DNA from: an uncultured Actinomycetes bacterium
GTDB lineage: Bacteria > Actinomycetota > Thermoleophilia > Miltoncostaeales > Miltoncostaeaceae
Direction: 5' to 3'
DNA length: 64,000 bases
Assembly: GCA_903896045.1 (NCBI GenBank)
Contig: CAITWD010000017.1
Location: 62,001 to 126,000, forward strand
Notes under the pieces: generated by a model
The model's database searches: none
What the model was told of the DNA's origin: nothing
The model's input: only the letters and a program-made list of their open reading frames with translations
In this document: positions 45,218 to 47,301 of the stretch, one piece after another
Position numbering within the stretch: position 1 is the stretch's first letter
Layout: every line of letters starts with the position of its first letter
Translations under genes and position numbers: made by a program

Positions 45218-45223
45218 TACCCT
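45218..45223 (+). promoter_or_regulatory. -10 box (TACCCT) at leaderless spacing
   Basis: TANNNT hexamer 7 nt before the GTG at 45231; no ribosome-binding site. TGAATT 17 nt upstream is a poor -35. It would drive the four-gene cassette that follows. Confidence 0.45.
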
Positions 45224-45230
45224 CTGACCC

Positions 45231-45692
45231 GTGACAGCTCGCCCCGCCCACAACGCCGACCGCAGGTCCGATGTATTCGCGTTGCGGACACGTGTTGAGA
45301 TATCCGATACCGATCTGGGTGGGGTCGTGTACTACGGGCGCTATTCCCACATGCTTGATCGCGCGGTGATCGCCTATCGTCGCCACATAGGAATTGCCCC
45401 GTTGGGCCCTGAGGGCCATCTGTTTGTGGTGCGCCGCGTCGAGATGGACTACCTCATATCCGCCCGCTTTGAGGATGAGCTTGATATCGCGGTGTGGATT
45501 CCTCGAATCGGTCGCTCCAGCCATACGGTCGCGTGTGAGATCACCCATGTCGTGACCGGGGGTGTGCTGCTGCGTGCGGAGTACACCATCGTTGGCGTCT
45601 CGGGATATGACGGCGGACGCCCCACGCGCGTGCCACACCAGATGACCGATGCAATCGTTGCCCACGAGGGCGACAGCGTCCAGCGCCGATGA
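45231..45692 (+). CDS. Hot-dog fold acyl-CoA thioesterase (YbgC/4HBT-like)
   Basis: 153 aa. RVEISDTDLGGVVYYGRYSH carries the catalytic Asp and the conserved Tyr/Gly of the 4-hydroxybenzoyl-CoA/YbgC thioesterase class; FVVRRVEMDYLISARFEDEL and GVLLRAEYTIVGV complete the hot-dog. Hydrolyses an acyl- or aryl-CoA in the cytoplasm. Probably leaderless. It is the first of four genes linked by 4-bp overlaps; the neighbours suggest a small pathway rather than general lipid turnover. Confidence 0.88.
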   Translation: MTARPAHNADRRSDVFALRTRVEISDTDLGGVVYYGRYSHMLDRAVIAYRRHIGIAPLGPEGHLFVVRRVEMDYLISARFEDELDIAVWIPRIGRSSHTVACEITHVVTGGVLLRAEYTIVGVSGYDGGRPTRVPHQMTDAIVAHEGDSVQRR

Positions 45693-46516
45693 GGCTGTTT
45701 GGCACCGACGCCGAGCTCCTGGAGGAGGCCGGGTGTGATGTTGCGCGCATCACGGAACTCGAACGCAGCCTTGTTGCAGGGCTCATCGAATGTCCGCGTG
45801 CCGATATTCATGTCCATGTGGGCCGCGACCGAGATGGCCACGAGCTTGATGTCGATGGGCTGCTTGCGGATATGGATGCATGGGGAATTCGCCGCACGGT
45901 GATATTCGCGCCCAACGACCCTGGCCCCGATGGAGATTTTGCAGATGCAAATGCCACCGTGCGCCGTGCTGCGGAGGTTGCTCCTGCGCGGCTCATCGAT
46001 TTTTGTCGCGTCGATCCGGAGATCTCGGCGCTCTCGGTCATGGAGGAGGCGATGAGACACGGCGCACGCGGACTCAAATTGCATCCTATTGCCCAAGGGC
46101 GGCCGCCCGAATCGGCTGCGTCAATTGCATGTGTGCGACGCGCGACCGAATTTGGGTGGCCGGTCATTATGCACGCGGGATTTGGTGCACGCTCGCTCGC
46201 TGATCCGTTTCTTGGAGTACTCAATGCGGTACCCGAGGCGCGATTGATTCTGGCCCATGGTGCCCGTGGCGATGCGCGTGCAGTGAGTGATGCACTCGCG
46301 GATCACCCCGGGGTGTGGTTCGACACCTCGCTTGCGACCCTTTCAGATCTGGTGATCTTGCCGCGTGAGCGCCTGATATTCGGGACCGATCGCCCCTACG
46401 GTGATCACGCAACGGCACTGCAGTTGGTTGATCATGCGGCCCGCCTTGCCAAGTGGAGCGAGGCAGATGTGCGGCGGGTGCTTGTGGGCAACTTCGACGA
46501 CATCCTGGGGGCGTGA
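45689..46516 (+). CDS. Metal-dependent hydrolase (amidohydrolase-2-like TIM barrel)
   Basis: 275 aa. PRADIHVHVGRDRDG carries the metal-binding HxH, GARGLKLHPIAQG the central His, PVIMHAGFG and ARLILAHGARGD further His ligands, and RLIFGTDRPYGD the terminal Asp. This set is typical of amidohydrolase-related enzymes (decarboxylases, lactonases or hydrolases such as the PdxA/LigW-like group). The ATG overlaps the thioesterase stop (ATGA at 45689-45692). The reaction is not known. Confidence 0.82.
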   Translation: MRLFGTDAELLEEAGCDVARITELERSLVAGLIECPRADIHVHVGRDRDGHELDVDGLLADMDAWGIRRTVIFAPNDPGPDGDFADANATVRRAAEVAPARLIDFCRVDPEISALSVMEEAMRHGARGLKLHPIAQGRPPESAASIACVRRATEFGWPVIMHAGFGARSLADPFLGVLNAVPEARLILAHGARGDARAVSDALADHPGVWFDTSLATLSDLVILPRERLIFGTDRPYGDHATALQLVDHAARLAKWSEADVRRVLVGNFDDILGA

Positions 46517-46818
46517 GCGTGCGTGGACCAGATGCCGTGCGCCTTGCCGCTGCACTCGGGGCGATTGAGATGGCACTCGTACGTCGCGATCTGGTTGTGG
46601 GGCCGCTTCTGGCACAAGCTGCGCGCGCGGCCAGTGAAACCCAGATTGCTCCACTTCTTGTCTGCGCCGCCGAACAGACCCGCGCCGATGATTTTTTTGC
46701 CGACACGTCGCCCGCAATTGCGCGACGCAAAATGACCCAGGCACTGTGTCGTGCCGCGGCGCACGAGGTGCATGCCGAGCTGCTGGTCATGACCGGTATC
46801 GATATGGGTGCATCGTGA
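46513..46818 (+). CDS. Hypothetical helical protein, 101 aa
   Basis: Not recognised. Mostly helical by composition: DAVRLAAALGAIEMALVRRD, GPLLAQAARAASETQIAPLL, CAAEQTRADDFFADT, and ALCRAAAHEVHAELLVMTG. Three cysteines/histidines are scattered without a motif. The GTG start overlaps the hydrolase stop and its own stop overlaps the next gene (GTGA each time), so it is made in step with them and may be a subunit. Confidence 0.6.
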   Translation: MSVRGPDAVRLAAALGAIEMALVRRDLVVGPLLAQAARAASETQIAPLLVCAAEQTRADDFFADTSPAIARRKMTQALCRAAAHEVHAELLVMTGIDMGAS

Positions 46819-47210
46819 CGAGTCCCATCATTCGTGCCCAAGTAGAGGCGACGAACCAGCGCTTTTATGACGCCTTTGGCGCACGAGATCTCGATGCGAT
46901 GATCGCCTGTTGGGCATCGACCGATGAGATTGCCTGCGTCCACCCGGGCAGTCCATGGATCCGCGGATGGGAGTCAGTCCGCGACACCTGGGAGGTCATA
47001 TTGAGTGGGATCGGTCCGATTGCGATCGACGTCGAGGTGGTCGAGATCGTGATCTGCGATCCCGTTGCATGGGTGAGCTGCGTCGAGCGAGTCCGGGCAG
47101 TCGGTGCGCCGGCCGATCACGCCAGCGAAGTTGCTGCCACCAACATGTTTGTCCTTGACGCGCACGGATGGCAGATGGTGCTCCACCATGCCTCTGCCGT
47201 GATCGCGTAA
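46815..47210 (+). CDS. NTF2-fold (SnoaL-like) protein
   Basis: 131 aa. Opens with VEATNQRFYDAFGARDLDAM and WASTDEIACVHPGSPWIRGW, the classic SnoaL_3/DUF4440 pattern, with RGWESVRDTWEVILSG, then the strands VEVVEIVICDPVAWVSCVER and MFVLDAHGWQMVLHHASAV. May be an isomerase, hydrolase or ligand-binding protein. Last gene of the coupled cassette. A strong hairpin at 47262-47288 ends the unit. Confidence 0.8.
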   Translation: MTSPIIRAQVEATNQRFYDAFGARDLDAMIACWASTDEIACVHPGSPWIRGWESVRDTWEVILSGIGPIAIDVEVVEIVICDPVAWVSCVERVRAVGAPADHASEVAATNMFVLDAHGWQMVLHHASAVIA

Positions 47211-47261
47211 GGATCGTTTTCTCGTCGGTGCGCGCGCTCGAAGAACTCGACGGCGCAGAGC

Positions 47262-47288
47262 GCCCTGGGCGCAGCGGGCGCCCAGGGC
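47262..47288. terminator. Bidirectional GC hairpin between convergent genes
   Basis: GCCCTGGGCGC and GCGCCCAGGGC (11 bp perfect, 5-nt loop), inside longer outer arms AAGAACT (47241-47247) and AGTTCTT (47304-47310). No T-run. It serves the cassette ending at 47210 and the ferredoxin gene ending at 47302. Confidence 0.65.
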
Positions 47289-47301
47289 ATCAACGCGAGT
47301 G

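Follow-up and report, generated by a model that had tools for sequence, protein, structure and literature searches.

Four kinds of described system lie closest to the locus considered here: thioesterases of the YbgC/FadM type with the 4HBT fold, hydrolases and decarboxylases of the Amidohydro_2 family, SnoaL_3 proteins with the NTF2 fold, and the split and fused gene pairs known as Rosetta stone pairs. In the amidohydrolase superfamily, the metal site is built from an HxH motif, a lysine, two histidines and an aspartate. The locus, found in a 64-kb stretch of DNA (the window), consists of four consecutive genes, A to D, and its component parts are already familiar. The protein A matches the 4HBT profile and YbgC chains in the PDB, but it stays below the cut-offs of the YbgC and TIGR00051 families and is encoded together with B and C. 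The protein B shares with the Amidohydro_2 enzymes both the profile and the HxH, Lys, His, His and Asp residues, but its putative helical partner is a separate protein here, whereas elsewhere it is a fused domain covered by no Pfam family. D is a SnoaL_3 protein by profile, but is not tied to the A-B-C core. As in Rosetta stone pairs, the hydrolase and a helical part are encoded by two coupled genes in the window and in another actinobacterial family (f23), and are fused in other families; C, however, is too diverged for its homology to be certain. The reading favoured here, with a probability of about two in three, is that A, B and C form one operon, in which B and C would be the two subunits of a hydrolase accompanied by the thioesterase A.

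The locus and the proteins it encodes

The initial annotation described four open reading frames joined by ATGA, GTGA and GTGA overlaps, and these are present at 45689 (A/B), 46513 (B/C) and 46815 (C/D), respectively. The features of the locus are as follows:

45218-45223, + strand: TACCCT, candidate -10 element of a leaderless promoter for A (sequence)
45231-45692, + strand: A, 4HBT (hot-dog) acyl-CoA thioesterase, 153 aa (Pfam PF03061)
45689-46516, + strand: B, Amidohydro_2 TIM-barrel metal-dependent hydrolase, 275 aa (Pfam PF04909)
46513-46818, + strand: C, predicted four-helix protein, 101 aa (AF2 and profile tests)
46815-47210, + strand: D, SnoaL_3 (NTF2-fold) protein, 131 aa (Pfam PF13474)
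47262-47288, no strand: 11-bp perfect hairpin between the convergent genes for D and a ferredoxin (RNA fold)

The assignment of A, B and D to a hot-dog thioesterase, an amidohydrolase-2-like protein and an NTF2-fold protein agrees with Pfam, where all three exceed the cut-offs: 48.1 bits against 20.6 for 4HBT (E 1.4e-12), 68.9 against 26.4 for Amidohydro_2 (E 8.4e-19) and 91.7 against 22 for SnoaL_3 (E 5.8e-26). In NCBIfam none of the four proteins has a match above cut-off, and A reaches 70.5 of the 141.35 bits set for YbgC (TIGR02799) and 46.9 of the 68.7 bits set for TIGR00051. B stops at the end of the barrel and has no C-terminal extension. Since its residues H41, H43, K130, H162, H190 and D234 are invariant in all 70 aligned homologues, as are D39, D47, D49, N88, R107 and H132, B is predicted to be, very likely, an active metal enzyme. 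Among PDB sequences it finds only weak matches to carboxyvanillate decarboxylases, including 5-carboxyvanillate decarboxylase (E about 1e-3), which do not fix its reaction.

The protein C, annotated as unrecognised and helical, indeed has no match in Pfam or NCBIfam and no significant match among PDB sequences, and none was found in the plasmid collection. Its AF2 model, built from three sequences, consists of four helices (pLDDT 89.8, pTM 0.80; 57 in a single-sequence run). The model has no Foldseek match at E ≤ 0.001, and VIA-align pairs it with unrelated helical bundles at Z up to 11.7, scores which the tool itself calls common for helical models. An assignment of function from the fold was therefore dropped. 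The N-termini of C in related genomes fit better to an alternative start, GTG at 46519.

The TACCCT element ends 7 nt upstream of the GTG start of A. A TANNNT motif at about this distance precedes 4 of the 76 called starts, compared with 32 of 5000 random places, and is thus about eight times commoner at starts, so that a leaderless promoter for A is a plausible candidate; the promoter scan found no sigma-70-type site. Behind D, the hairpin with which the cassette had been said to end is present as a stem (47262-47272 paired with 47278-47288; the fold of 47211-47301 has a z of -2.2). It has no T-run behind it and is absent from the results of the terminator scan. Nothing on the cassette was found in those parts of the literature that were seen, whether on Miltoncostaea or on amidohydrolase, Rubrobacter, Thermoleophilia and four-helix.

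Conservation of A, B and C in the window's family

The window's genome comprises 1.67 Mb in 41 contigs. Within its family, which we take to be the Miltoncostaeaceae, the locus keeps its place: it is bordered on one side by SufB/SufD and the genes of a helix-turn-helix regulator and of a small membrane protein, and on the other by ferredoxin, Mrp, a metallo-beta-lactamase and RpiB. The gene order A-B-C is kept as well. At the A/B junction, a possible start of B lies at the 4-nt overlap in 26 of 31 loci. At the B/C junction, the same is true of C in 25 of 31, and the other six have a start of C within 15 nt of the stop of B, so that in all 31 loci about 100 aa are encoded directly after the barrel, as in the fused domain. 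A duplicate locus (L031, identical with L038) and a locus containing no cassette gene (L049, from G021) were left out of these counts; a locus that breaks off within the cassette was not scored for the genes it lacks, and the place of D lies beyond the end of some contigs. A, the split kind of B, and C are jointly absent from 6 of the 42 genomes of the family (G004, G005, G014, G015, G021 and G034), although G005 carries a fused homologue of B elsewhere in its genome. In one further genome, which is 64% complete, only A was seen.

A 4-nt overlap could exist at ten of the 40 pairs of neighbouring genes that lie on the same strand in the window, and therefore the overlaps alone are weak evidence; the strong part of this evidence is, on the sequences compared, their conservation in relatives. 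The frequency of such pairs, together with the small genome, speaks for the ordinary packing of a compact genome, in which unrelated housekeeping genes overlap through short spacers. This explanation is nevertheless improbable, as relatives whose genomes measure 2-4.5 Mb show the same A-B-C order and overlaps, and the three genes are absent together. A-B-C is a conserved, tightly coupled three-gene unit. Outside the window's family, no link of A to B was seen in the loci read.

Matches to C were obtained in 36 of the 42 genomes of the family, or 35 after removal of G021, where the match is weak and unsupported by the profile or by the presence of A or B. A class-wide draw of 399 genomes added four weak matches, about as many as expected by chance; one is in G014, a member of the family, and three (E 0.004-0.009) are in genomes of other families. 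Judged by these searches, C is confined to the window's family. In 111 pairs with more than 60% identity, the differences at the three codon positions amount to 0.18, 0.16 and 0.47; C changes mostly at third positions and is therefore a protein under purifying selection. Neither of the outcomes that would have spoken against the initial annotation, the scattering of the genes in relatives and the lack of conservation of C as a protein, occurred for A-B-C.

The position of D is different. The initial annotation had proposed one pathway or complex for all four genes, and D does overlap C in the window and is found at the locus in eight relatives too. However, this makes only 9 of 35 genomes of the family, in five of which a further gene separates C from D, and the C/D overlap occurs in the window only. 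D was therefore rejected as a core member and is a frequent but accessory neighbour outside the conserved core, and a dedicated pathway including all four genes is improbable. The part of the proposal concerning A, B and C stands on their conserved order, overlaps, and joint presence and absence.

Other genes join the unit in parts of the family. A short-chain dehydrogenase gene lies upstream of A in 15 loci, and a gene of the SirB1 type (transglutaminase-like/TPR) lies downstream of C in 15. Five relatives have a gene for a SAM methyltransferase upstream of A, and in four of them a possible start of A lies at a 4-nt overlap with it. The window's genome contains no match for the relatives' methyltransferase or SirB1 gene. 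The place between C and D is occupied in one genus by a gene for a proline-rich membrane protein instead of the SirB1-type gene (L038:6081-6920, L039:6258-7040). In G012, A-B-C is flanked by two similar-looking genes of about 650 codons (locus L042, 2942-4903 and 6639-8603, on the strand of B), which, read by eye, we take to encode secreted trypsin-type proteases.

Fused and split homologues of B, and the relationship of C to the fused domain

A homologue of B is present in 161 of 249 genomes of the class. Outside the split group, 36 distinct loci were read, one of which (L134) is masked; in 33 of the 35 assessable loci, from several other families of the class, the barrel is followed by about 100 aa of helical sequence at the C-terminus. 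The two exceptions, L120 and L146 from one family (f4), have neither the C-terminal domain nor a C-like ORF nearby, so that the partner is not needed everywhere. The alignment of the domain omits L134, these two loci, a duplicate (L143), and four loci in which the gene was not cleanly called (L115, L121, L123 and L124), although the domain was found in all four. When 396 genomes of the phylum were searched with the resulting profile of 15 sequences, 34 had a match at E ≤ 0.001, including 21 in f23, which we take to be the Rubrobacteraceae. In this family the domain has a gene of its own, C', of about 105 codons, which follows the hydrolase gene. The order hydrolase, C', asparaginase II was found in all 14 loci fetched, and a start of C' at a 4-nt overlap is possible in six of the seven junctions checked. 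Profile comparison shows homology between C' and the fused domain (hhalign Prob 96.8, E 3e-10). In a barrel tree of 61 rows, the split family of the window (support 99) adjoins the fused clade (98), and f23 and the short forms lie on the other side (97). The tree is rooted at the midpoint only; if the root lies between these two sides, the split genes may represent the older state and the fusion a single event.

The existence of fused and split relatives supports B and C as one enzyme, and C is probably the partner of B because many of the related hydrolases have a similar segment fused to them. The relationship of C itself to the fused domain was assessed by several profile comparisons, the outcomes of which differ in strength. 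Scored against the fused profile, the native C was equalled by none of 400 column shuffles, 39 rotations or 47 reversed rotations; when the comparison was run the other way round, the native score was reached by 1 of 400 shuffles and by 7 of 45 rotations. With a custom profile-profile score, C ranked first of 111 against the fused profile and first of 214 against the f23 profile, the latter by a small margin (22.7 against 21.6 for the best control). After f23 was added to the fused profile, C ranked third of 111, behind two helical windows of methyltransferases, and 10 of 1000 shuffles reached the native score; the HMMER comparison of C with f23 gave 13 such cases among 1000 shuffles and 8 among 77 rotations.

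Other comparisons allow a different explanation, according to which C forms an unrelated helical protein family of its own that entered the operon in the window's family; it would then act together with A and B without corresponding to the fused domain. The alignment of C with the domain by hhalign is not significant (E 0.03-0.34). Joining B and C gave a gain of 3.65 with the fused HMM, compared with 3.24 (sd 0.44) with shuffled C, a negative result in a test handicapped by the missing linker of about 25 aa. A search with the profile of the fused domain gave no hit to C in the 10 listed genomes of the window's family, and four-helix bundles resemble many unrelated things. Against this stand the scores of C above shuffles and most real-protein controls, as well as its place after the barrel, its size and its coupling, all of which are the same as for C' in f23. 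An unrelated origin of C is thus rather unlikely, and the homology of C to the fused C-terminal helical domain is quite probable.

Under the favoured reading of a two-subunit hydrolase with its thioesterase, A-B-C would be transcribed as one operon. B, a TIM barrel, would be the catalytic subunit of a metal-dependent hydrolase from the amidohydrolase superfamily, and C a separate helical subunit in the role of the C-terminal domain of the fused homologues, which would pack on the barrel of B and shape its pocket or its oligomer. Ribosomes ending B could start C through the overlapping stop and start codons, yielding matched amounts of both subunits. A would free an acid from its CoA thioester in the same pathway as B-C, and D would be accessory. 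It is from sequences and predicted structure that we infer the B-C complex, the kinship of C and the fused domain, and the reaction and substrate. If this reading is true, a module of the B-C metallohydrolase and A has been kept even in a 1.67-Mb genome, and C, a protein devoid of database matches, acquires a probable role as a helical hydrolase subunit. The natural pair of split and fused forms also offers a way to test how a helical domain tunes a TIM-barrel hydrolase.

Genomic neighbourhoods of the B homologues

In 5 of the 14 f23 loci a methyltransferase gene follows asparaginase II, and its product is 34-40% identical to the methyltransferase of the window's family. By sequence, the same methyltransferase family is thus found by B-C in both families (five loci in the window's family). 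The set of methyltransferase, thioesterase and hydrolase genes is a lead for a substrate search. The chances are evenly balanced that a hitherto undescribed metallohydrolase of actinobacteria, with B and C as its two subunits, exists in coupled two-gene and in single-gene forms, lies by the same O-methyltransferase family in two distant families, and makes up a new metabolic module together with A.

The neighbours of the fused homologues, which we take to include an M16 peptidase, a lytic transglycosylase, PhoH/YbeY and HrcA/DnaJ/PrmA, vary, and a function was therefore not derived from them. In two genomes of one genus, the fused homologue of B lies within the SUF operon, directly after SufD (L112:2235-9067, L128:15-5823). 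A strict link to Fe-S assembly, suggested by these two loci and by the SUF and ferredoxin flanks, was dropped, as none of the other homologue loci read has a SufB/SufD match by B, and this neighbourhood is treated as a location and not as a functional link. In one locus, the hydrolase, small protein, asparaginase and methyltransferase genes are followed by an ORF (L168:8371-8703) similar to the leader of Os1348/NHLP RiPPs, with 38.1 bits (E 1.2e-9) just short of the cut-off of 40, which hints at a peptide-modification cluster. In another (L152:334-1953), an FHA domain precedes the hydrolase and its C-terminal helical domain.
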